A stretch of DNA of 40,905 nucleotides from a virus: positions 1 to 40,905 of IMG/VR virus record IMGVR_UViG_3300017755_000017; one strand, given 5' to 3'. Shown here piece by piece: positions 4,414 through 26,510 of the stretch; position 1 is the first letter of the stretch, and every line of letters starts with the position of its first letter. The position numbers and the translations under genes are program-made. The notes under the pieces were generated by a model. The model ran no database searches. It saw nothing but the letters and a program-made list of their open reading frames with translations, and was not told where the DNA came from.

Positions 4414-4560
4414 ATGGTACAAGAGTTAGAAAAACCAATTACTTTAAAGATACATACAAAGTGCCCTAGGAAGTGGATGATAACAGATTTAGAAACAGGT
4501 GAGAAGTATAAAGCCACAGGTAAAACAGAATTATATAAGATGTGGAAAAAGTATGAGTAA
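4414..4560 (+). CDS. Small hypothetical protein between deformylase and methyltransferase
   Basis: A 48-residue basic protein starting MVQELEKPITLK. The frame is also open from an ATG at 4372 inside the deformylase gene, but that would add a 14-residue overlap product without a clear SD; GAG at 4401 favours the ATG at 4414. The central part, KWMITDLETGEKYKATGK, reads like a small beta-hairpin fold. The stop overlaps the methyltransferase start by 8 bp, which supports it as a real coupled gene. I do not recognise a family. Confidence 0.55.
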   Translation: MVQELEKPITLKIHTKCPRKWMITDLETGEKYKATGKTELYKMWKKYE

Positions 4561-5692
4561 TTATAAACCTTACAAATTAAAAGACGTAATAGATAATTCA
4601 AATAAAGAATTATTTACTGTCATATCTACTTTTGCTGGTGGTGGTGGTTCTTCTACTGGTTATAGACTAGCTGGTGGTAAGATATTATGTGTAAATGAAT
4701 TTGTTGAAGCAGCAGTAGAAACATATAAATCAAATTATCCAAACACACCTGTTTTACCAGATGATATAAAACAATTAAAAGGTGAAGACTTTTTAAAGAT
4801 TGCTGGTATCAAAAAAGGCGAGTTAGATATATTAGATGGTAGTCCACCTTGTTCAGCGTTTAGTACAGCAGGTAAAAGAGAAAAAGGTTGGGACCAAACA
4901 AAGACTTATTCAGATGGTAAACAAGTTGAAAATATAGAAGATTTATTTTTTGAGTTTACTAGAATTGCAGGTGATATAATGCCTAAAGTAGTTATTGGTG
5001 AAAACGTGGCTGGTATTACTATGGGTGAAGCAACAGAATATAGAAATAAAATTATTAATGAATTTGATAAACTAGGGTATGAAACTGTTTATAAAGTATT
5101 AAGTGCAGCAGATTTTGAAACACCACAAGATAGAAAGAGATGTTTTTTTGTTGCTGTTAGAAATGATATAATGGAAAATGCAGGTATAAACTTTATGACT
5201 TTAGAGAGTGAAATATATCCTGAGCCTGTAACACCTGAACGTATATCAATTAAGTCAGCGATAGATGATTGTAAAAATGACCCTGAACAAGAAAAAGAAT
5301 TATTTGAATATGTACAAAAGGGCTTTCAAAAAAAGTGGATAGAACTATTAGAGTTTAATCCTAAAAGACATAGAAAACCAAGTGATATTGATTTCATAGA
5401 TATAAACCCTAAAAGATCAATGTTTAATATGATAAGACCTTGTCCTGATTTACCAAGTCCTACATTAACACAAAGGGGACAACAGATGAGTGTATCAGGT
5501 GTATTTCATTATGCCAAGAATAGAAAACTTACAATACCAGAATTAAAAAGACTTATGGGTTTACCTGAAGATTTTAGATTAGAAGGTAAATTTGATAAAC
5601 AAGCTGAAAGAATCGGTCGTATGGTTGCCCCTCTAATGATGAAGAATCTGGCGGCAAATATATACGAAAAAGTGTTAAAAAGAACAAAATAA
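4553..5692 (+). CDS. C5-cytosine DNA methyltransferase, copy 1 (Arg in motif X)
   Basis: Transfers a one-carbon group from an SAM-type donor to cytosine C5 in DNA. The 379-residue protein starting MSNYKPY has motif I FAGGGGSSTG (27-36), motif IV GSPPCS with catalytic Cys100, motif VI ENV (150-152) and motif VIII QDRKR (192-196). A target-recognition region follows, then motif IX near LTIPELKRLMGLPEDF and motif X RIGRMVAPLMMK. In ordinary family members motif X has GN (GNSV, GNAVPP); here the Asn is Arg356 (codon 5618-5620). The start at 4553 is chosen over 4499 because copy 2 aligns from here (MNNYKRY) and the overlap with the upstream gene is then 8 bp. The target site is unknown. No restriction enzyme gene is adjacent, so self-modification is likelier than a restriction system. 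Confidence 0.92.
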   Translation: MSNYKPYKLKDVIDNSNKELFTVISTFAGGGGSSTGYRLAGGKILCVNEFVEAAVETYKSNYPNTPVLPDDIKQLKGEDFLKIAGIKKGELDILDGSPPCSAFSTAGKREKGWDQTKTYSDGKQVENIEDLFFEFTRIAGDIMPKVVIGENVAGITMGEATEYRNKIINEFDKLGYETVYKVLSAADFETPQDRKRCFFVAVRNDIMENAGINFMTLESEIYPEPVTPERISIKSAIDDCKNDPEQEKELFEYVQKGFQKKWIELLEFNPKRHRKPSDIDFIDINPKRSMFNMIRPCPDLPSPTLTQRGQQMSVSGVFHYAKNRKLTIPELKRLMGLPEDFRLEGKFDKQAERIGRMVAPLMMKNLAANIYEKVLKRTK

Positions 5693-12464: not shown

Positions 12465-12610
12465 CTTTATATTTAAGAAAACTAATCGTTAAATTAAGAA
12501 TGTATTACTGTGACCTACGAGGACACCACGGCAAGAGATGGAACTACGAGCCAGGTGACCACTATATGGGCAGAGGAATTGATAGAAGACGAAGAAATGG
12601 AAAAAGTTAG
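12461..12610 (+). CDS. Small basic hypothetical protein overlapping gp44 and the oxygenase
   Basis: An ATG at 12461 overlaps the gp44 stop (ATGA) and opens a 49-residue frame, MTLYLRKLIVKLRMYY and then a His/Arg-rich part ending RRRRNGKS. It ends 14 bp inside the next gene. The stretch 12510-12600 is clearly richer in GC than its neighbours and reads sensibly in this frame, which argues against extending the oxygenase upstream to the GTG at 12510. No family recognised. It is Arg-rich and could bind nucleic acid. The case rests on the ATGA coupling and codon pattern. Confidence 0.5.
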   Translation: MTLYLRKLIVKLRMYYCDLRGHHGKRWNYEPGDHYMGRGIDRRRRNGKS

Positions 12611-13202
12611 TTACTTTAGTTTGTTTCCCAAACTAGTGTATTCATCTTTTTTAGGTAGAGATTTTACTGGAGCTGAAAAAGAATACACAGAGATTTTAAG
12701 TAGGAATACTAATAGAAATAGTAGTAATTCCATATCACAAAATATCAATGTGTTGGAACACCCTGCTTATGCTGATATTAAAACTTGGCTAATAAAAAAT
12801 TTAAATAATTATAGAGATAACATATTAAATCCAAAATTTGATATGGAAATTTATATAACAGAGTCTTGGGTAAACTATACTAATCAAAACGAAAAACATC
12901 ATCCTCATAAACACTCAAATAGCTATTTGAGTGGAGTGTTTTATTTGAATGGAATTGATGATGATACCATACAATTTTATCAGGATGAAAATTTATTTGA
13001 CATTGAAACGGATAATTATAATTTATATAATTGTCCATCTTGGAATTATCCAGTAAGTACAGGTCAATTAATTTTATTTCCATCTGGTATTAGACACGGA
13101 GTTGCTACTAATACACAAAATAAAACTAGAATAAGTTTGGCATTTAATACTTTTTTAAAAGGTAAAATATCAGATACAAGAACAATAGGATTGAAAATAT
13201 AA
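12597..13202 (+). CDS. 2OG-Fe(II) oxygenase-like protein (TIGR02466 type)
   Basis: A 201-residue protein with the features of the phage 2OG-FeII_Oxy_5/TIGR02466 group: ESWVNYTN, a histidine-rich HHPHKHSNSYLSGVFYLN segment (His101-His106), then GQLILFPSGIRHGV (His167) and a C-terminal NKTRISLAFNTF with Arg178 as likely 2-oxoglutarate ligand. Such enzymes couple oxidation of a substrate to decarboxylation of 2-oxoglutarate; the substrate here is unknown. I use the ATG at 12597. A longer frame from a GTG at 12510 would add 29 residues that overlap a better-looking frame. It sits unusually between gp44 and gp62. One of four oxygenase-like genes in the window. Confidence 0.75.
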   Translation: MEKVSYFSLFPKLVYSSFLGRDFTGAEKEYTEILSRNTNRNSSNSISQNINVLEHPAYADIKTWLIKNLNNYRDNILNPKFDMEIYITESWVNYTNQNEKHHPHKHSNSYLSGVFYLNGIDDDTIQFYQDENLFDIETDNYNLYNCPSWNYPVSTGQLILFPSGIRHGVATNTQNKTRISLAFNTFLKGKISDTRTIGLKI

Positions 13203-14019: not shown

Positions 14020-15513
14020 ATGCAAGTACCAAAGTTTAGAGAATTTATCACAGAAACAGATGTAGGTCGTAAAGACAAACCTATAACAGTTGCTATTGTA
14101 ACGATAGCAGATTCAAAAGACCCTAAAGAAAATACAACTGCTGATCTTATATCAAAAGCGTGTAAGAAAAAAGGCATTAAGTGTGTTATAGTAAATACTA
14201 AATCAACAATCATCACACAAAAAGACGAAGACAAAAATACATTAACAGTATATAATTATGACGGCAAGAATGCTGAACATACATTTACTGGTAGAGATAC
14301 TTGTTGTATAGTTAGAGGTGGCGCTTTGGAAGACGAAGCTGGTTTATCAATCATCTCCGCTTTTCAAAACTCACAAGCATTTATGATGAATACTAGGGCA
14401 GCAATGTTGACCTGTGATAACAAACTTACAACTGCATTACTATTTGAAAAGTATGGAATACCCACACCTAGAACAGCATACGTTTCTAACGAAAATAATA
14501 TTAAAACAGCATTAGATATGATTGGTGCAAAATTTCCAATCATCTTAAAAACATTAACAGGAACTCAAGGTGTTGGTGTAATTAAAATAGAAAGTTACGA
14601 AGGTCTTGTGGCTACGTTACAAGCAATGTGGAAATTAGAGGCAGAAGTATTAATACAAGAATATATGCCTAGTGATTTTGACGTAAGAACTTTCTGTGTT
14701 GATAATAAAATATTTGCTAGTACAAAAAGAAGTCATAGTAGCTATGATTTTAGATCAAACACACATAGAGGTGCTGAGGCAGAGCCATATATTTTAAGTA
14801 AAGAAGAAAAAGAATTAGTTTTAAAAACTGCTAGAGCTTCAAAAGCATATATGGTAGGTGTTGACCATATTATACATAAAGACAAACCATACTTACTAGA
14901 AATTAATGGTAGTCCAGGTTCAGGTGCAGATTACGAGGGTTATCAACACAAAGATTATTACTCTGATTCAGAACCAGCTGGTAGAATAGATGGTGAAAAA
15001 ATGATGTCAAATGTAATAGATTGGGTTAATGATAGAGCACATTGGGATAGACAATCACTTGTTGAGTGTGGTTGGTTAGAAACAATAGACCTAGATGAAA
15101 TTGGTAAAGTAAGATGTAAGTTTGATACTGGTAATGGTTCTAAAGCTTGTGCATTACACGCTGATGAAATTATATCAGATGGTAAAATTGTCAAATGGAA
15201 ATATAATGGCAAGACTTTCACAAAACCTAGACACGGAAAAAGTGAAGTGTTCAGATCAAATGCTACTAACGAACCATCAGAAGTTAGACCTACAATCTTA
15301 CTGGATATTACATTTAATGGTTTTACATATAAAGACGTAGAAGTAGGTTTAGACCAAAGACCTAGGTCAAGTTCTGACTTACTAGTCAATAGAGATTTAA
15401 TGAGATTAATGAATTTGAGTGTCAATCCTAATAGAACTTTCGTATTAAGTAGAAGATTGAGACCAATTGATAAAAAAGGAAAGCCAGATAAAGTAGGGTT
15501 TGATAAGAAGTAG
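14020..15513 (+). CDS. rimK: RimK-type ATP-grasp ligase fused to a RimB-like aspartyl protease domain
   Basis: Residues about 20-340 form a RimK-like ATP-grasp ligase: GGALEDEAGLSII, MLTCDNKLTTALLFEKYGIP, a LKTLTGTQGVGVI P-loop, and LLEINGSPG (292-300) for metal/ATP binding. Residues about 350-485 form a retropepsin-like domain with KFDTGNGSKACALHA (Asp369-Thr-Gly) and a C-terminal RPRSSSDLLVNRDLM, resembling the ATP-dependent zinc protease family (RimB-like). In bacteria RimK adds glutamates to ribosomal protein S6, and RimB is linked to the same pathway. A single chain with both is notable. The N-terminus FREFITE|T resembles a prohead-protease-cut tag, so the enzyme might be packaged. It starts right after regA. 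Confidence 0.85.
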   Translation: MQVPKFREFITETDVGRKDKPITVAIVTIADSKDPKENTTADLISKACKKKGIKCVIVNTKSTIITQKDEDKNTLTVYNYDGKNAEHTFTGRDTCCIVRGGALEDEAGLSIISAFQNSQAFMMNTRAAMLTCDNKLTTALLFEKYGIPTPRTAYVSNENNIKTALDMIGAKFPIILKTLTGTQGVGVIKIESYEGLVATLQAMWKLEAEVLIQEYMPSDFDVRTFCVDNKIFASTKRSHSSYDFRSNTHRGAEAEPYILSKEEKELVLKTARASKAYMVGVDHIIHKDKPYLLEINGSPGSGADYEGYQHKDYYSDSEPAGRIDGEKMMSNVIDWVNDRAHWDRQSLVECGWLETIDLDEIGKVRCKFDTGNGSKACALHADEIISDGKIVKWKYNGKTFTKPRHGKSEVFRSNATNEPSEVRPTILLDITFNGFTYKDVEVGLDQRPRSSSDLLVNRDLMRLMNLSVNPNRTFVLSRRLRPIDKKGKPDKVGFDKK

Positions 15514-18697: not shown

Positions 18698-19176
18698 AAA
18701 TAATAAAAGATAATATTAACGATTTTTTCAAATGGGTTAAGGGTACTGATCTTGTTTTACTAGACGACATAGATGTAGCAGAGGATCCTGTTAGACCTGA
18801 ATTAACTTTAGGTTTTAGAATTACACACGGTAGAAAAATCTTTGGATTAAGATACAACAACGAAATAGAAGCAATAGTATGTATTGCATTGTGTCCTGAA
18901 ATACCACATACTGTAAGAGAAATGGATTATATGAGTCAAGCAGCTAATTCAAACGGACACGGTGAGATAGTGGTTGCATATACAGTATGGTCTCGTAAAC
19001 GAGGTGCAGGTAGAGAAATTATAAGTAAATTAAGAGAATGGGCATTAGAAAAAGATTATAAAAGATTAGTTACCTTATCTCCATTAACACCTATGGCAAC
19101 TCACTTTCATATTAAAAATGGTGCTAAACAAGTACACATAAATGAAGTAACACAAAATTTTGAGTATAAACTATGA
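18694..19176 (+). CDS. GNAT-family acetyltransferase-like protein
   Basis: A 160-residue protein with a GNAT-like core. It has a beta-rich central part (KIFGLRYNNEIEAIVCIALC) and the acetyl-CoA loop region RKRGAGREIISKLREWALEK around residues 107-126. The final helix-strand segment is MATHFHIKNGAKQV. The R-x-x-G-x-G/A signature is present as KRGAGR. It begins 4 bp inside the polymerase gene, so it belongs to that operon, and overlaps the next gene by 4 bp. The substrate (a protein, nucleotide or small molecule) cannot be told from sequence. Confidence 0.75.
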   Translation: MKIIKDNINDFFKWVKGTDLVLLDDIDVAEDPVRPELTLGFRITHGRKIFGLRYNNEIEAIVCIALCPEIPHTVREMDYMSQAANSNGHGEIVVAYTVWSRKRGAGREIISKLREWALEKDYKRLVTLSPLTPMATHFHIKNGAKQVHINEVTQNFEYKL

Positions 19177-19697
19177 CAAAAGATGTAACAATAATAGATA
19201 ATTTATTACCTGATAATTTACACAAAATGTGCTATGAACTTATTACACAGGAAGCTTGTTGGCAATTAAGTATGGCATCTATGGATTCAGCACACAAAAT
19301 TGCTGGTACAACACTATTTGATTTATATGATGGAGTTAATACAAATACAAGATCACAAACACTTGCTTCAGTAATATATCAAATGGTAAGAACTAAAATA
19401 CCAGCATTACCAAATGATTTAAGAAGAATACAATTAGGAGCTAAAGCAGCAAACCAAGATGATGTAATACATAAAGATAGTGAAAGAGATGATAGAATAA
19501 CTGTACTTTATCATTTAAATTACGAGTGGAATCCTATTTGGGGAGGACCTACAGTTGTTAATGGAGTATCCTACGATTATAAACCTAATCGTGCATTGAT
19601 TTATAAATCAAATTTATTGCATGGAGGTAAAGCTGGTACTGGTAAAATGTTTAGAACTTATATTAATTACATAATAGCTGATAATAGAGATGAATAG
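19173..19697 (+). CDS. 2OG-Fe(II) oxygenase, HxD type
   Basis: A 174-residue protein with a conventional iron triad: VIHKDSERDDRITVLYHLN gives H100-x-D102, SNLLHGG gives H150, and MFRTYINYI gives Arg161, the likely 2-oxoglutarate contact. WGGPTVV matches the loop before the second half of the barrel in prolyl-hydroxylase-like proteins. The complete motif suggests an active enzyme. It lies directly upstream of the DNA modification genes, so oxidation of a modified base is conceivable, but a protein or small-molecule substrate is equally possible. Overlaps with neighbours (4 bp upstream, 8 bp downstream) show it is in the same operon. Confidence 0.82.
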   Translation: MTKDVTIIDNLLPDNLHKMCYELITQEACWQLSMASMDSAHKIAGTTLFDLYDGVNTNTRSQTLASVIYQMVRTKIPALPNDLRRIQLGAKAANQDDVIHKDSERDDRITVLYHLNYEWNPIWGGPTVVNGVSYDYKPNRALIYKSNLLHGGKAGTGKMFRTYINYIIADNRDE

Positions 19698-19836
19698 TTT
19701 ATTAATTTTAATCGTTGTAATACATTGGAGTGTAGCACTTGGTATGTATTTTGCTGCAAGTACAAGGTTAACCATACCACAATTTTTGATGTTGGTATTA
19801 GGGTTTAGATATATGATGTTATCTTATGGATTTTAA
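19690..19836 (+). CDS. Small membrane protein, two hydrophobic segments
   Basis: A 48-residue frame starting MNSLLILIVVIHWSVALGMY, with a second hydrophobic stretch QFLMLVLGFRYMMLSYGF. It overlaps the oxygenase stop by 8 bp and the adenine methyltransferase start by 11 bp, the same overlapping style used across this region. Two short transmembrane helices with a turn TRLTIPQ are likely. No family recognised. Small phage membrane proteins often modulate host membrane functions or superinfection, but nothing here points to a specific role. Confidence 0.55.
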   Translation: MNSLLILIVVIHWSVALGMYFAASTRLTIPQFLMLVLGFRYMMLSYGF

Positions 19837-20362
19837 AACAAACAAAAAATATGGAGTGATATATGCAGACCCACCTTGGACGTTTAAAACGTATAGCAAT
19901 AAAGGAAAAGATAAAAGTCCTGAAAAACATTATTCTTGTATGCCTTTATCTGACATCCTTCGGTTACCTGTTGGCGACCTTGCTAAGGATGATGCAGTCC
20001 TCTTAATGTGGGTAGTTGACCCATTATTAGATCAAGCATTTAAAGTAATAGACGCTTGGGGTTTCAAGTATAAGACAGTAGGATTTACTTGGGCAAAGAC
20101 AAATAAAAAATCTTTAGGTTTTTTTACAGGCTTAGGTTACTGGACTAGAGGAAATCCAGAGATGTGTTTATTAGCAACAAAGGGTAAACCTAAACGGCTA
20201 AATAAAAGTATACCACAATTAGTGGTTAGTCAAAGACAAGAACATAGTAGAAAACCAGATATAGTATATAATCATATAGAAAAAATGTTAGAAGGACCAT
20301 ACATAGAATTGTTTGCTAGACGTAAAAGAGATGGTTGGTTTAGTTGGGGTAACGAAGTATGA
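19826..20362 (+). CDS. MT-A70-type adenine-N6 methyltransferase
   Basis: A 178-residue protein with the catalytic DPPW (D15-W18) in VIYADPPWTFKTYSNKG. A GFKYKTVGFTWAKTNKKSLG strand-loop follows, then GYWTRGNPEMCLLATKG and a C-terminal GPYIELFARRKRDGWFSWGNE. This is the MT-A70 family order: DPPW first, then the SAM-contacting ELFAR near the end, a circularly permuted beta class. Phage members methylate adenine in DNA. It is the first of three modification genes (with 20441 and 21597). No partner restriction enzyme is visible. The target site is unknown. Confidence 0.9.
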   Translation: MDFKTNKKYGVIYADPPWTFKTYSNKGKDKSPEKHYSCMPLSDILRLPVGDLAKDDAVLLMWVVDPLLDQAFKVIDAWGFKYKTVGFTWAKTNKKSLGFFTGLGYWTRGNPEMCLLATKGKPKRLNKSIPQLVVSQRQEHSRKPDIVYNHIEKMLEGPYIELFARRKRDGWFSWGNEV

Positions 20363-20454
20363 TACTGCACTTGACTCTATCTTTATTATATGTTATAATG
20401 ATCTATGGTTTTGTCATATGGTTATTAATGAAGTGGAATAATGAACAATTATAA
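20359..20454 (+). CDS. Possible tiny membrane peptide
   Basis: A 31-residue frame, MILHLTLSLLYVIMIYGFVI and then WLLMKWNNEQL, starting with an ATGA overlap at the end of the adenine methyltransferase and ending 14 bp inside the second C5 methyltransferase. It is one hydrophobic helix. However, the DNA also carries a consensus promoter (20371-20399), whose TTGACT and TATAAT boxes themselves encode part of it, so the frame may be incidental. Confidence 0.35.
   Translation: MILHLTLSLLYVIMIYGFVIWLLMKWNNEQL
20371..20399 (+). promoter_or_regulatory. Sigma70-type promoter for the C5 methyltransferase 2 / CmoA-like pair
   Basis: TTGACT at 20371-20376, a 17-bp spacer and TATAAT at 20394-20399, 41 bp before the ATG at 20441. 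It gives the methyltransferase/CmoA-like pair its own start of transcription, separate from the MT-A70 gene. Confidence 0.78.
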
Positions 20455-21604
20455 AAGATATACATTAGAAGATACTTTACAAAGTGAGAAAAAAGCACTA
20501 TTCAATGTGCTATCAACTTTCGCTGGTGGAGGTGGTTCGTCAACAGGTTATAGACTGGCTGGTGGTAAGATACTAGCTGTTAATGAGTTTGTTGAAGAAG
20601 CACAAAACACATATAGGGAAAATTATCCCAATACATTAATTATACCTGGTGATATAAACAAGTTGACAGGAAAAGATTTTTTAGATAAGATAGGATTAAA
20701 ACCAGGTGAACTAGATTTATTAGACGGTAGTCCACCTTGTTCAGCATTTAGTATGGCAGGTTCAGTATCACACGGTAAAGGTAATACACACGCTGATGCA
20801 TTTGGTAAAACAAAACAATATAGTGATATTAAAGGTGTAAGTAACGTAGAAGATTTATTTTTTCAATTTTTAAGAGTGGCAGATGAAATAAAACCAAAAG
20901 TAATTATTGGTGAAAATGTTGAAGGTTTGACAATGGGAGAAGCAAAAGAATACTTCCATAAGATACAAAATACTTTTGAACAAATGGGTTATCTAGTTGT
21001 TGCTGATGTATTAAATGCTAGTTATTTTGGCGTACCACAATCTCGTAAAAGAACTTTTTTTATTGGTGTTAGAGAAGATGTTGCTGATAAGATTGGTTTA
21101 AATTTTATGACAATGTATCAATTGTATCCTGAAGTAAACAAAGAACAAACTATTTTGAGCGAAGCAATAAGTGATATTGTAAATGAAGACAAAGAAGAAT
21201 TAGATTATTTGTTTGAGAAGATAGGACCTGATAGAGCTGTTGGTAAGACATTGGCTAAAATGCCTACAGATCCTGACAAAGTATTAACAGGTATGGATTA
21301 CCACGAGAAAGGTCATCACTTTAATTTAAAAAGAAGTAGTTTAAGAAAACCTTGTCCAACAATAACAGCTATGGGTAATCTTGCTGGTGTCGCTGGTACT
21401 TGTCATCCAATAGAGAATAGAAAGTTTACTATAAAAGAATTAAAAAGAATTATGAGTCTACCTGAAAACTTTAAATTAACAGGTCAACATAAACAGAAGT
21501 CAGAACGGATAGGTCGTATGGTGCCACCGTTAATGATGAAAGCACTTTCGGAAAGTGTATATAACAAAGTATTGAAACCATATAAGGAGATATGTAATGA
21601 CTAA
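20441..21604 (+). CDS. C5-cytosine DNA methyltransferase, copy 2 (Arg in motif X; next to CmoA-like gene)
   Basis: A 387-residue paralogue of the protein at 4553. Motif I FAGGGGSSTG (27-36), GSPPCS with catalytic Cys100, ENV (158-160), QSRKR (200-204) and a motif IX region TIKELKRIMSLPENF are intact. Motif X reads RIGRMVPPLMMK, with Arg359 (codon 21515-21517) in place of the family's Asn. The two copies are nearly identical in the first 50 residues but differ from the motif IV/VI insert through the target-recognition region, so they probably modify different sites. The gene has its own promoter and overlaps the CmoA-like gene by 8 bp. Together these suggest that the donor may be carboxy-SAM rather than SAM; that is inference. 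Confidence 0.92.
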   Translation: MNNYKRYTLEDTLQSEKKALFNVLSTFAGGGGSSTGYRLAGGKILAVNEFVEEAQNTYRENYPNTLIIPGDINKLTGKDFLDKIGLKPGELDLLDGSPPCSAFSMAGSVSHGKGNTHADAFGKTKQYSDIKGVSNVEDLFFQFLRVADEIKPKVIIGENVEGLTMGEAKEYFHKIQNTFEQMGYLVVADVLNASYFGVPQSRKRTFFIGVREDVADKIGLNFMTMYQLYPEVNKEQTILSEAISDIVNEDKEELDYLFEKIGPDRAVGKTLAKMPTDPDKVLTGMDYHEKGHHFNLKRSSLRKPCPTITAMGNLAGVAGTCHPIENRKFTIKELKRIMSLPENFKLTGQHKQKSERIGRMVPPLMMKALSESVYNKVLKPYKEICND

Positions 21605-22274
21605 ATTTACTTTTGCCACAAGCAACGAAGGCTTTGATAATCACATAGATAAATCTGTACGTGGTTATAGTAACTTATGGAGTGATATACTTTCATTGTC
21701 AAAATACTTTGTAGAAGACAATACAAATGTTGTTGATATAGGTTGTTCTACTGGTAAGTTATTAAAGGGTATGATAGAACAAAATCAAAAACACATACCA
21801 AAAGCAAAGTATATGGGTATAGAAATTGAAGAAGATTTTTATGGCGACTATGTTTTTGATGAACAAAAGTTTGATAATTTAAGATACCATAAAGGTGATG
21901 TTAGAAGTTTTGAATTTAATAATTGTAGTTTAGTTACTTCAATATTTACTTTACAATTTATGCCACCAAAAGATAGAGAAGAAGTTATTAATAGAGTATA
22001 TAATGGTCTTAATGTTGGTGGTGCTTTTATCTTTTCAGAAAAAACTTTTAGTTGTAATCCTAGAATACAAGATATGATGACCTTTACATATTACGATTAC
22101 AAAAGAAATAATTTTACTGATGCAGAGATATTAGACAAAGAAGTACAGCTAAGGCATATGATGAAACCAAATACAAAGACAGAGTTGTATGATATGTTTA
22201 CTAATGCTGGTTTTGAAGTACACAATTTCTGGCAGAACTTTAATTTTATAGGGGCGATTGCTTTAAAGAAATAA
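21597..22274 (+). CDS. cmoA: CmoA-like carboxy-S-adenosylmethionine synthase
   Basis: A 225-residue class I methyltransferase fold. The sequence follows CmoA along its length: FDNHIDKSVRGYSNL (13-27) resembles the CmoA opening, VVDIGCSTGKLL (45-56) is the SAM-binding loop, and TLQFMPPKDREEVINRVYNG with LNVGGAFIFSEKTF matches the CmoA core. A DYKRNNFTDAEI segment and a final NFWQNFNFIGAIALKK follow. E. coli CmoA converts SAM and prephenate to carboxy-SAM, used by CmoB on tRNA wobble uridine. No CmoB-like gene is in the window. The close coupling with the C5 methyltransferase (8-bp overlap, shared promoter) suggests the product serves DNA modification. An ordinary SAM methyltransferase remains possible until the carboxylate-binding residues are aligned. 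Confidence 0.78.
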   Translation: MTKFTFATSNEGFDNHIDKSVRGYSNLWSDILSLSKYFVEDNTNVVDIGCSTGKLLKGMIEQNQKHIPKAKYMGIEIEEDFYGDYVFDEQKFDNLRYHKGDVRSFEFNNCSLVTSIFTLQFMPPKDREEVINRVYNGLNVGGAFIFSEKTFSCNPRIQDMMTFTYYDYKRNNFTDAEILDKEVQLRHMMKPNTKTELYDMFTNAGFEVHNFWQNFNFIGAIALKK

Positions 22275-22282
22275 ATATCTTT

Positions 22283-22588
22283 ATGGCAATTACAAAAAAA
22301 TCTTATGAAGATTTAAGACAGTATTGGGACTATCAAAGAAAAGTAGAATACAATAAAGAGATGGTACACTTTATGGCTGATAGATTTGAGGGTAGAGTGT
22401 ATAATGATTTTGGTATGGTACATATAGATGAGATGAAAAATGTTTTATGGACAAAAGTTGATCCTAAAGATTATGAAGAACCTAGAAAAGGTTATGTACC
22501 AGCAAATCCAAAGTTAAGATTTGAATGGGAAGGTGGGGCATATTTACCTCAACCAGCAATACCTCATTATGATGATGAAAAGCATTGA
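22283..22588 (+). CDS. Hypothetical protein upstream of uvsX
   Basis: A 101-residue protein starting MAITKKSYEDLRQYWDYQRK. It is charged, with an N-terminal helix pair and a C-terminal region rich in Pro, Tyr and Trp (LRFEWEGGAYLPQPAIPHYD). No membrane segment. It lies 8 bp after the CmoA-like gene, so it probably shares its transcript, and its last bases contain the -35 box of the uvsX promoter. I do not recognise a family, and no catalytic pattern is visible. Confidence 0.6.
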   Translation: MAITKKSYEDLRQYWDYQRKVEYNKEMVHFMADRFEGRVYNDFGMVHIDEMKNVLWTKVDPKDYEEPRKGYVPANPKLRFEWEGGAYLPQPAIPHYDDEKH

Positions 22589-22613
22589 CATTTTAAATAG
22601 AATGATATATAAT
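22585..22613 (+). promoter_or_regulatory. Consensus sigma70-type promoter for uvsX
   Basis: TTGACA at 22585-22590, a 17-bp spacer and TATAAT at 22608-22613; both boxes are perfect. TAGGAG and the uvsX ATG (22642) follow. The -35 overlaps the stop of the preceding gene. Confidence 0.85.
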
Positions 22614-22641: not shown

Positions 22642-23658
22642 ATGAGTGATTTTTTAAAAGATATAATTAAAAACGTAGATAATGAATATGCCTCACTAGC
22701 AAGTGAAGGTATTGATGGCGCAGATGTAACAAGTTTTATAGACACAGGTTCTTATTCTTTTAATGCTCTTTTATCAGGTAGTATATATGGTGGTATGCCT
22801 GGAAATAAAATTACAGCAATCGCTGGTGAAGCAGCAACAGGTAAAACATTTTTTGCTTTAGGTATTTGTAAACATTTTTTAGATACCGATAAAGACGCTG
22901 GTGTAATTTACTTTGAATCAGAAAGTGCTATTTCAAAAGATATGATTGAAGGTCGTGGTGTAGATAGTAAAAGAATGGTCATAGTACCAGTTGCTACAGT
23001 ACAAGAGTTTAGAGCACAATCAATAAAAATTATAGACAAATATTTAGAACAACCAGAAGCAAATAGAAAACCTTTAATGTTTGTATTAGATAGTTTAGGT
23101 ATGTTATCTACTACAAAAGAGATGGAAGATACAGCTGCTGGTAAAGAAACAAGAGATATGACTAGATCACAAATAGTCAAATCTACATTTAGAGTTTTAA
23201 CATTGAAATTAGGTAAAGCAAATATACCTATGATAATGACTAACCATACTTATGATGTCATTGGTTCAATGTTTCCACAAAAAGAAATGGGTGGCGGCTC
23301 AGGTTTGAAATACGCTGCCTCATCTATCATCTATCTAAGCAAACGTAAAGAAAAAGACGGTACTGAGGTAGTTGGTAATATAATTCATTGTAAAAATTTT
23401 AAGTCAAGGTTGACAAAAGAAAACGCTATGATTGATGTAAGACTCACTTATGAAAAAGGTTTAGATAGACACTATGGTCTTTTAGAACTAGCAGAAGAAG
23501 CTGGTATCTTTAAGAAAGTATCTACTAGATACGAAACACCAGATGGTACGAAAGTCTTTGGTAAGTCTATCAATACAGAACCTAAAAAATATTTTACAAA
23601 GGAAGTATTAAAACAGATAGATGACCATGCTAAACAAAAATTTTCTTACGGAACATAG
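22642..23658 (+). CDS. uvsX: UvsX RecA-like recombinase
   Basis: Catalyses strand invasion for recombination-dependent replication and repair, with gp46/gp47 preparing the ends. The 338-residue protein has Walker A GEAATGKT (62-69), the FESESAIS catalytic-Glu region, Walker [12 protein letters not shown] and an L2-like [13 protein letters not shown] segment. Length is slightly below T4 UvsX (391). It has its own consensus promoter. The 3' end overlaps the next gene by 38 bp, one of the longer overlaps in the window. A UvsY gene is not visible nearby. Confidence 0.95.
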
Positions 23659-24310
23659 AGAACATTTATTATTTTTTACACATTTAACAGAAAGACTTTA
23701 CGACTTTCCACTTAATGATGATTTAATAGATGCTTTACATACAGCAAGAAAAAATCTAAAATTAAAAGAAAACAAAACTTTTGATGATCCTAATTTTCAG
23801 TATGGTAATAAAACATTAGGTGGTTTCCAACCTTGTTTTCCAGTTGCCAATTTTACAGATATTACTAAAGAACACGCACCATATTTACAAGACAAACATT
23901 TTGAAGCTATAAAATCTTTTAAAAATAATATAATTATAGACACGGTAGATGATTATATTAACAGATATTATCCAAATACTCGTAATGAATTAACGTATGC
24001 TAATTGGGCTGTTATGTATGACAAAAATTCTTTTCAAAGAGTACATACACACGGTAGCAGTTTATTTACTTCTATTTTTTATGTTGATATGCCTAAAACA
24101 AAATATCCATATGAAGGACAGATAGAAATAACAGATGTAAGTAGCAACCACGATGGATTAACAACGAGAGTAGTAGAACCTATAAAAGGTTTAATGGTAA
24201 CTTTTCCAGGGAAGTATCCTCACTATACTTTACCTATACAAAGTGAGGGCGAAAGAATTGTAATAGTAAATGATGTTAGGTTAAAAAATAATGACACACC
24301 AGGAAAATAA
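23621..24310 (+). CDS. 2OG-Fe(II) oxygenase-like protein (TIGR02466 type)
   Basis: A 229-residue protein with [20 protein letters not shown] (His142, His144), [24 protein letters not shown] (His201) and ERIVIVND (Arg212), the same pattern as the protein at 12597 and typical of phage 2OG-FeII_Oxy_5 proteins. The iron triad would be H-x-H ... H rather than the classic H-x-D. ATGs at 23621 and 23627 both lie inside uvsX; the choice is open. It overlaps the next gene by 20 bp. Located between uvsX and gp41, where marine T4-like phages carry variable genes. Substrate unknown. Confidence 0.72.
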
Positions 24311-24584: not shown

Positions 24585-25947
24585 TGAAAGAATAGAAATA
24601 ACTATATTAAGAAATCTAATTTTTAATGAAGATTATACAAGAAAGGTTTTACCTTTTTTAAAAGAAATATATTTTTCTGATAGAAATGAACAGGTTTTAT
24701 ATAAACAGATAGAGTTATTTGTAAACGAATATAAAAATCTTCCAACAAAAGAAGCTCTATTAATAGAACTCAATCAAAGAAAAGATATAAACGAAGATGA
24801 GTTTAAAGCAGTAAAAGAATTGATGACAACACTTTCAACAGAAGATGTTGATGGACAGTGGTTGTTAGATACTACAGAAAAATTTTGTAAAGATAGAGCA
24901 GTACATAATGCTGTGTTAGATGGTATCAAAATTTTAGATAAGAAAGATAAAAAGAGAACACCAGAAGCAATACCAAGTATTCTTGCTGATGCATTGGCTG
25001 TTTCTTTTGACAATCATATTGGGCACGATTATTTAGAAGATGCAGAAAAACGATATGATTGGTACCATACAAAAGAGAAAAAGTATCAATTTGATTTGTC
25101 GTATATGAACAAGATTACTAAAGGTGGTGTACCAAGTAAAACTTTGAATATCGCTCTTGCTGGTACTGGTGTAGGTAAATCTTTGTTTATGTGCCATTGT
25201 GCTAGTAGTTTTTTGGCTCAAGGTCAAAATGTTTTGTACATTACTTTAGAAATGGCAGAAGAAAGAATTGCTGAAAGAATAGATGCTAATTTATTAGATG
25301 TAACTATTGATGATTTACACACAATGCCTAAACAATTATATGAAGATAAGATTGGTAAAATTAGGAATAAGACTTCAGGTAAATTAATTATAAAAGAATA
25401 TCCAACAGCATCTGCACACGCAGGTCATTTTAGAGCTTTGTTAAATGAATTGGCTTTAAAAAAATCTTATAGACCTGATGTTATATTCATAGACTATTTA
25501 AACATCTGTACAAGTAGTCGTTTCAAAGGTGGTAATATTAATTCATACACATTGATTAAATCTATTGCTGAAGAACTCAGAGGTCTTGCAGTAGAGTTTA
25601 ACTTGCCTATCTTTAGTGCAACACAAACAACAAGAACTGGTTTTGTAAGTACAGATATTGGTTTAGAAGATACATCAGAATCTTTTGGTTTACCAGCAAC
25701 TGCTGACTTTATGTTTGCTTTAATATCAAATGAAGAATTAGAATCATTAAATCAAATGAAAGTTAAACAGTTAAAGAATAGATACAATGACCCAGGTATC
25801 AATAGATCATTTATTATTGGTGTAGATAGAGCTAAAATGAAACTCTATGATGTAGAAAACTCAGCACAAAATATTGTACAGAGTAGTGATACTAAAAAAA
25901 GTGATCCTGATACGTCATATGAAAAGTTTTCGGATTTTAAATTATGA
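24577..25947 (+). CDS. 41: gp41-like replicative DNA helicase
   Basis: The hexameric 5'-3' helicase of the fork, DnaB family. The 456-residue protein has an N-terminal helical domain like DnaB/gp41, Walker A GTGVGKS at 196-202, a TLEMAEERIAERID H1a-type motif, Walker B VIFIDYLNIC and a FSATQTTRTG sensor segment. Length matches T4 gp41 (475). The start is a TTG at 24577 with GGAAGGCAAGG upstream; no ATG fits before the conserved N-terminus. The gp61 primase is not in the window. The stop overlaps the next gene by 4 bp. Confidence 0.94.
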   Translation: MTSERIEITILRNLIFNEDYTRKVLPFLKEIYFSDRNEQVLYKQIELFVNEYKNLPTKEALLIELNQRKDINEDEFKAVKELMTTLSTEDVDGQWLLDTTEKFCKDRAVHNAVLDGIKILDKKDKKRTPEAIPSILADALAVSFDNHIGHDYLEDAEKRYDWYHTKEKKYQFDLSYMNKITKGGVPSKTLNIALAGTGVGKSLFMCHCASSFLAQGQNVLYITLEMAEERIAERIDANLLDVTIDDLHTMPKQLYEDKIGKIRNKTSGKLIIKEYPTASAHAGHFRALLNELALKKSYRPDVIFIDYLNICTSSRFKGGNINSYTLIKSIAEELRGLAVEFNLPIFSATQTTRTGFVSTDIGLEDTSESFGLPATADFMFALISNEELESLNQMKVKQLKNRYNDPGINRSFIIGVDRAKMKLYDVENSAQNIVQSSDTKKSDPDTSYEKFSDFKL

Positions 25948-26510
25948 TTTATGATTTAAAACATTATGTTCAACATCAAAAAAGTTTTCTACCTAAAACC
26001 TTTTGTGATAAAGTGTTAGGTGAAATGAAATCTACAAAGTTTGAAGAACATACATTTTTTAATCCTAAAACAAATCAACATGCACCTATGAGTGGTAACC
26101 AAGAGTTATCAATGAGTTTTGATAATACACCATCAAAAAATGAATTAACAGATAGATTGTGGAATGCAATAAAAAATTATAAAGAGTTTATAAACATGCC
26201 TTGGTTTTCAAGTTGGCAAGGATACTCTGCTGTTAGATTTAATGAATACAAAGAAAATAAAAAGATGGCTTTACATTGCGACCATACTAAAGATTTGTTT
26301 GATGGTGAGAGAAAAGGAATACCAATATTAAGTGTGTTAGGTGTTTTAAATGATGATTATGAAGGTGGCGAATTTATAATGTTTGATGATTACGAAATAG
26401 AGTTTAAACAAGGTGATGTGGTAATATTTCCTTCTTTGTTTTTATATCCTCATAAAGTTGAACCAGTAACAAAAGGTACTAGATATTCATATATCAGTTG
26501 GGTATGGTAA
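25944..26510 (+). CDS. 2OG-Fe(II) oxygenase, prolyl-4-hydroxylase-like
   Basis: A 188-residue protein with a canonical triad: MALHCDHT gives H111-x-D113, FLYPHKVEPV gives H170, and KGTRYSYISWVW gives Arg180, with the P4H-type GVLNDDYEGGEFIMFDDY and GDVVIFPS strands between. The pattern is complete, so an active enzyme is likely. P4H-like proteins are frequent in marine T4-like phages, where the target (often thought to be protein) is unproven. It follows gp41 with a 4-bp overlap and ends 7 bp inside the next frame. Confidence 0.85.
   Translation: MIYDLKHYVQHQKSFLPKTFCDKVLGEMKSTKFEEHTFFNPKTNQHAPMSGNQELSMSFDNTPSKNELTDRLWNAIKNYKEFINMPWFSSWQGYSAVRFNEYKENKKMALHCDHTKDLFDGERKGIPILSVLGVLNDDYEGGEFIMFDDYEIEFKQGDVVIFPSLFLYPHKVEPVTKGTRYSYISWVW

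Follow-up and report, generated by a model that had tools for sequence, protein, structure and literature searches.

The closest described system to the locus analysed here is that of Synechococcus phage S-B43, which encodes CmoA, the C5-carboxymethyltransferase CmoX and the ligase CmoY (Yang et al., Nat Commun, 7 December 2025; PMC12783734). S-B43 CmoA is an active carboxy-SAM (Cx-SAM) synthase with a kcat ten times that of the E. coli enzyme, and CmoX uses Cx-SAM as its sole cofactor, giving 5-carboxymethylcytosine (5cxmC) as product (PMC12783734). In the CmoX crystal structure (PDB 8YF3), Arg350 touches the Cx-SAM carboxylate, and the R350N variant accepts neither cofactor (PMC12783734). 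The target of the enzyme is GC, and its mark gives resistance to HhaI; CmoY adds glycine, and the virion DNA carries only the glycine amide 5gcxmC, not bare 5cxmC (PMC12783734). The same study lists 5,615 candidate CmoX sequences and cites the engineered M.MpeI N374K, in which the change of the motif X Asn to Lys permits use of Cx-SAM (PMC12783734). In E. coli CmoA, Arg199 binds the carboxylate through a salt bridge (PMC3663124, PMC4482062).

Here, the window is the whole 40,905-nucleotide (41-kb) stretch of viral DNA that was analysed (IMG/VR record IMGVR_UViG_3300017755_000017), part of the genome of a marine T4-like phage. The original prediction for this DNA was that a cytosine methyltransferase with a motif X Arg and an adjoining CmoA-like gene together write 5cxmC. 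The chemistry is upheld by homology to S-B43 CmoX, by the Arg itself and by gene co-occurrence, and, judged from sequence, the phage very probably makes 5cxmC via Cx-SAM; the newness is not upheld. Since the best PDB match of the methyltransferase is S-B43 CmoX (8YF3; 461.6 bits, E=1.7e-137), whose activity is already proven, the hypothesis appears right but was published in December 2025, and natural 5cxmC as a discovery was anticipated by that work. The window provides an independent sequence-level check of the newly published CmoA-CmoX system and adds to the main text of the S-B43 study (PMC12783734) a second CmoX enzyme and the lack of a detectable finishing ligase.

Gene content of the locus

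The features of the locus are listed in Table 1. The CmoX-B and CmoA open reading frames overlap by 8 bp, in agreement with the overlap first described, and a Shine-Dalgarno-like GGAG lies directly 5' of the CmoA gene. The promoter that had been proposed ahead of this gene pair exists as a string, but as promoter-like sites in this AT-rich region are no commoner than in shuffled DNA, its function is plausible and unproven. A profile search of the window yielded no match to the CmoB family PF08003, as expected from the earlier statement that no CmoB was in view.

Table 1. Positions of CmoX, CmoA and associated features in the window
Feature	Coordinates	Strand	Details
CmoX-B, putative DNA cytosine C5-carboxymethyltransferase	20441..21604	+	387 aa; PF00145; Cys100 in SPPC; Arg359 in motif X
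CmoA-type carboxy-SAM synthase	21597..22274	+	225 aa; TIGR00740; phrog_4752; CmoA fold
CmoX-A, second divergent CmoX paralog	4553..5692	+	379 aa from ATG 4553; PF00145; Arg356 in motif X
Promoter-like site TTGACT-N17-TATAAT, inferred	20371..20399	+	upstream of CmoX-B; 11/12 consensus, TG before -10
101-aa protein, next gene of likely operon, not core	22283..22588	+	homologs are 62 ORFs
Promoter-like site TTGACA-N17-TATAAT, perfect 12/12, inferred	22585..22613	+	before uvsX; possible end of CmoX-CmoA unit
RimK-type ATP-grasp ligase	14020..15513	+	PF08443 E=1.9e-36; probably unrelated to CmoX-CmoA

Several neighbouring genes were considered as parts of the system and set aside. The 101-aa protein is missing from 24 of the 94 loci with B-type CmoX and CmoA despite enough downstream sequence, and the GNAT and 2OG oxygenase genes adjoining CmoX-B are found in the closest relatives only. 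A role for the upstream MT-A70 protein (19826-20362) as an adenine carboxymethyltransferase is unsupported, because proteins 50-59% identical to it are common in phages absent from the list of organisms with a CmoA match. No depletion of the GC dinucleotide as a modification footprint was detected (odds ratio 0.97).

Among the other genes of the window are a tryptophan-halogenase-like flavoenzyme, of which the C-terminal part lies at the window edge (124-1062; PF04820), and four 2OG-Fe(II) oxygenase-like genes within 14 kb (12510-13202, 19173-19697, 23621-24310 and 25944-26510). In loci L040, L042, L044-L046 and L050, a protein resembling S-adenosylmethionine decarboxylase (SpeD) by eye is encoded between CmoA and uvsX, directly after CmoA.

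CmoX-B and its Cx-SAM site

CmoX-B is a complete C5 cytosine methyltransferase (PF00145, E=4e-54) with a catalytic SPPC motif. Alignment to M.HhaI with phmmer pairs query residues 23-359 with chain residues 14-304, and since the alignment ends at this point, Arg359 stands opposite M.HhaI Asn304; in a multiple alignment it occupies the same column as Arg350 of S-B43 CmoX. The claims of a full methyltransferase at this position and of an Arg at the expected site in motif X are therefore both confirmed. CmoX-B is 56.5% identical to S-B43 CmoX (tblastn), and the residues of the S-B43 Cx-SAM site (Phe25, Glu47, Phe48, Asp69, Cys98 and Arg350) are all kept in CmoX-B and CmoX-A, with the catalytic Cys100 likewise present in both paralogs. 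In the target-recognition region, the B type shares 42% identity with S-B43 CmoX together with the block DYHEKGH-FN-KR, which is not kept in the A type (26% identity). By analogy with S-B43, the target of CmoX-B would be GC.

The CmoA-type protein

The protein encoded directly after CmoX-B had been described as following CmoA along its length, and this description holds: TIGR00740 matches residues 4-224 (116.9 bits, E=1.1e-33; curated cut-off of 193.3 not reached), and a fold search with the predicted model (mean pLDDT 81) returned E. coli and H. influenzae CmoA as top matches (4iwn/4gek/1im8). S-B43 CmoA likewise scores below the curated cut-off. The window protein is 52% identical to S-B43 CmoA and 56% identical to the S-CRM01 homolog. 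The E. coli SAM-site residues Tyr39, Asp62, Gly64, Ser66, acidic 89, Phe137 and Glu164 are matched by Tyr24, Asp47, Gly49, Ser51, Glu76, Phe121 and Glu148, and Asn90 and Asn132 are replaced by Ile77 and Ile116, both Asn residues being lost in S-B43 CmoA as well.

The carboxylate-binding residue, which the original prediction would have present, is not conserved. The column of E. coli Arg199 holds Glu182 in the window protein, with Arg186 four residues on, one turn later in the same predicted helix, and both residues are invariant in 20 relatives. This Glu/Arg pair recurs in the active S-B43 CmoA, so the missing Arg199 does not refute the assignment and reflects a property of the phage branch rather than lost function. 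By this comparison, the Arg199 salt bridge appears not to be a defining feature of phage CmoA, and we infer that Arg186 may have taken over the carboxylate contact.

A second CmoX paralog

The window encodes a further enzyme that had been missed, CmoX-A, which carries its own motif X Arg and all Cx-SAM contact residues of S-B43 CmoX and matches 8yf3 with 381 bits. Its open reading frame is open from GTG 4499, and most relatives start at or after ATG 4553. In a maximum-likelihood tree of CmoX sequences, CmoX-A belongs to a distinct clade (A) with good support, and CmoX-B groups with S-B43 and S-CRM01 CmoX. The two window paralogs are 61% identical in the catalytic half versus 29% in the target-recognition region, and from these sequences CmoX-A probably recognizes a target different from that of CmoX-B; as CmoX-B and S-CRM01 CmoX also diverge in this region (35% identity), different targets for the A and B types are suggested rather than established. 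Pairs of A-type and B-like CmoX were found in contigs G001, G005, G007 and G008, and loci L114-L117 carry such a pair in tandem; the dual CmoX repertoire is a repeated arrangement in related phages. A different tandem is found in L077 (372-2695), in which two A-type CmoX genes follow a CmoY fragment and precede CmoA.

Co-occurrence of motif X Arg and CmoA

The expectation that motif X Arg enzymes would accompany CmoA in other phages was strongly borne out, with CmoA within 2.5 kb of the CmoX-B-type gene in 64 of 71 non-redundant loci. Of the remaining seven, four run into a contig edge, and the others come from a divergent group of three with a weakly detected CmoA. In a census of untruncated CmoX-like open reading frames of A, B or S-B43 type from about 200 fetched loci, motif X Arg was present in every sequence except the L192/L204 lineage, which has Leu; an apparent natural Lys in L192/L204 was rejected as a search-pattern artefact. 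Arg and CmoA occur together in S-B43, S-CRM01, RN05-S, Mcat8, PaBG, an Erwinia jumbo phage and TurkishDelight. Record searches for CmoA gave no match in nine records with motif X Asn, Leu, Met or Glu enzymes (Terrisporobacter phage, RB16, PaV-LD, P23-45, Eldridge, Mcat25, Melnitz, a Flavobacterium phage and a faecal contig), controls that are few, mutually related and not phylogenetically independent.

One exception to this rule, and a counterpoint to the 5cxmC reading, is the SPbeta-like Staphylococcus phage (L209 4959-6658), in which CmoA lies directly before an HhaI-like methylase with Gly instead of the motif X Arg. The two Leu enzymes (L192 781-1989 and L205 3995-5212) are followed by Tet/JBP-type oxygenases, although the L192 oxygenase matches just under the Pfam cut-off. 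The identity of the motif X residue thus seems to track the partner enzyme. This suggests that the L192 and L205 methyltransferases make 5mC destined for oxidation.

Discussion

By analogy with their S-B43 counterparts, CmoA, CmoX-B and CmoX-A of the window are all predicted to be active. In the proposed mechanism, CmoA would convert SAM and prephenate to Cx-SAM, Cys100 of CmoX-B would attack C6 of cytosine as in C5 methyltransferases, and the carboxymethyl group would be moved from Cx-SAM to C5, with Arg359, in place of the usual Asn, holding the carboxylate and shutting out ordinary SAM. CmoX-A, supplied with Cx-SAM by that one CmoA, would perform the same reaction, probably on another target sequence. 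Most likely the resulting base would shield the phage genome against restriction, whether it stays bare 5cxmC or undergoes a further step that this fragment does not reveal.

Membership of both proteins in SAM methyltransferase superfamilies would also fit a methyltransferase that makes plain 5-methylcytosine beside a CmoA-like protein that is an unrelated SAM methyltransferase or a tRNA-modification enzyme, and the TIGR00740 score of the window CmoA below the curated cut-off, a feature shared with S-B43 CmoA, counts in the same direction and against the 5cxmC reading. However, the motif X Arg aligns with the Arg that confers Cx-SAM specificity on S-B43 CmoX (PMC12783734), CmoB is without a match in the window, and CmoX and CmoA are tightly coupled across phages, adjacent in dozens of contigs, which leaves plain 5-methylcytosine highly improbable. 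The 5cxmC reading itself includes two accounts, not exhaustive, of what becomes of the base. In the first, 5cxmC is a handle that a CmoY encoded elsewhere in the genome completes with glycine or another amine, as might be expected from the CmoX-CmoY-CmoA operons of A-type relatives in other phages, from the tandem order CmoY-CmoX-A-CmoX-B-CmoA in L116/L117 and from the S-B43 virions with glycine amide alone (PMC12783734). Against this, profile searches for the CmoY ligase family PF00733 yielded no match in the window, none in the long B-type contigs that were searched, apart from G021 and those of the A-type CmoY clade, and none in the complete genomes of S-CRM01 and RN05-S, though these have CmoA and CmoX; S-B43 CmoY as a query also found no relative in S-CRM01 or RN05-S. 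On balance, a CmoY elsewhere in the genome is a real possibility, somewhat short of an even chance.

The window covers just 41 kb of a larger genome, which leaves the absence of CmoY from the whole phage unproven and gives no view of any later pathway steps; the two complete genomes, lacking both PF00733 and a CmoY relative, make bare 5cxmC or another tailoring enzyme likely in those phages. The second account, a ligase-less variant in which one CmoA feeds two CmoX enzymes with different targets and 5cxmC stays bare or is processed further by some enzyme that is not CmoY, is a tentative one, at appreciably less than even probability. A substitute for CmoY could in principle be the RimK-type ATP-grasp protein, adding amino acids to 5cxmC, as it belongs to a carboxylate-amine ligase family and is present in many of the longer contigs from the B-type clade that lacks CmoY. 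Its relatives, however, occur in Melnitz, Mosig (Pelagibacter phage), S-RIM8 and S-RIM12, where CmoA was not found, none of them appearing by organism among the CmoA matches listed, and it is missing from the CmoY-less S-CRM01 and RN05-S, so this role is very unlikely. By eye, the C-terminal extension of the RimK-type protein resembles a RimB-like retropepsin domain.

If the ligase-less two-enzyme variant is true, anionic cytosines would be denser or differently patterned than in S-B43. Phages often carry two CmoX types, and two enzymes that differ in their target regions might carboxymethylate sites outside GC. S-CRM01 and RN05-S are named isolates in which bare 5cxmC as the final DNA base could be directly tested.

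Compared with known systems, the window CmoA shares the fold and most SAM-contact residues of E. coli CmoA (4GEK/4IWN), but the E. coli enzyme works with CmoB on tRNA and has Arg199 where the window protein has Glu182 and, one turn on, Arg186. Engineered M.MpeI N374K is alike in that a basic residue replaces the motif X Asn and makes Cx-SAM usable (PMC12783734), and differs in being engineered, in its CG target and in having Lys rather than Arg. The Melnitz/L192-type C5 methyltransferases are of a related enzyme lineage, with Leu at motif X, a Tet/JBP-like oxygenase partner and no CmoA found. The Synechococcus phages S-CRM01 and RN05-S resemble the window in their motif X Arg and in a CmoA that adjoins CmoX, in complete genomes without PF00733, whereas each has a single CmoX, with CmoA upstream of it. 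S-B43 differs in its gene order (CmoA-CmoY-CmoX versus CmoX-CmoA) and from the two CmoX paralogs and undetected CmoY of the 41-kb fragment, yet it shares with the window the motif X Arg, the Cx-SAM contacts, the catalytic Cys, an adjacent CmoA that also has the Glu/Arg pair, and a similar B-type target region.
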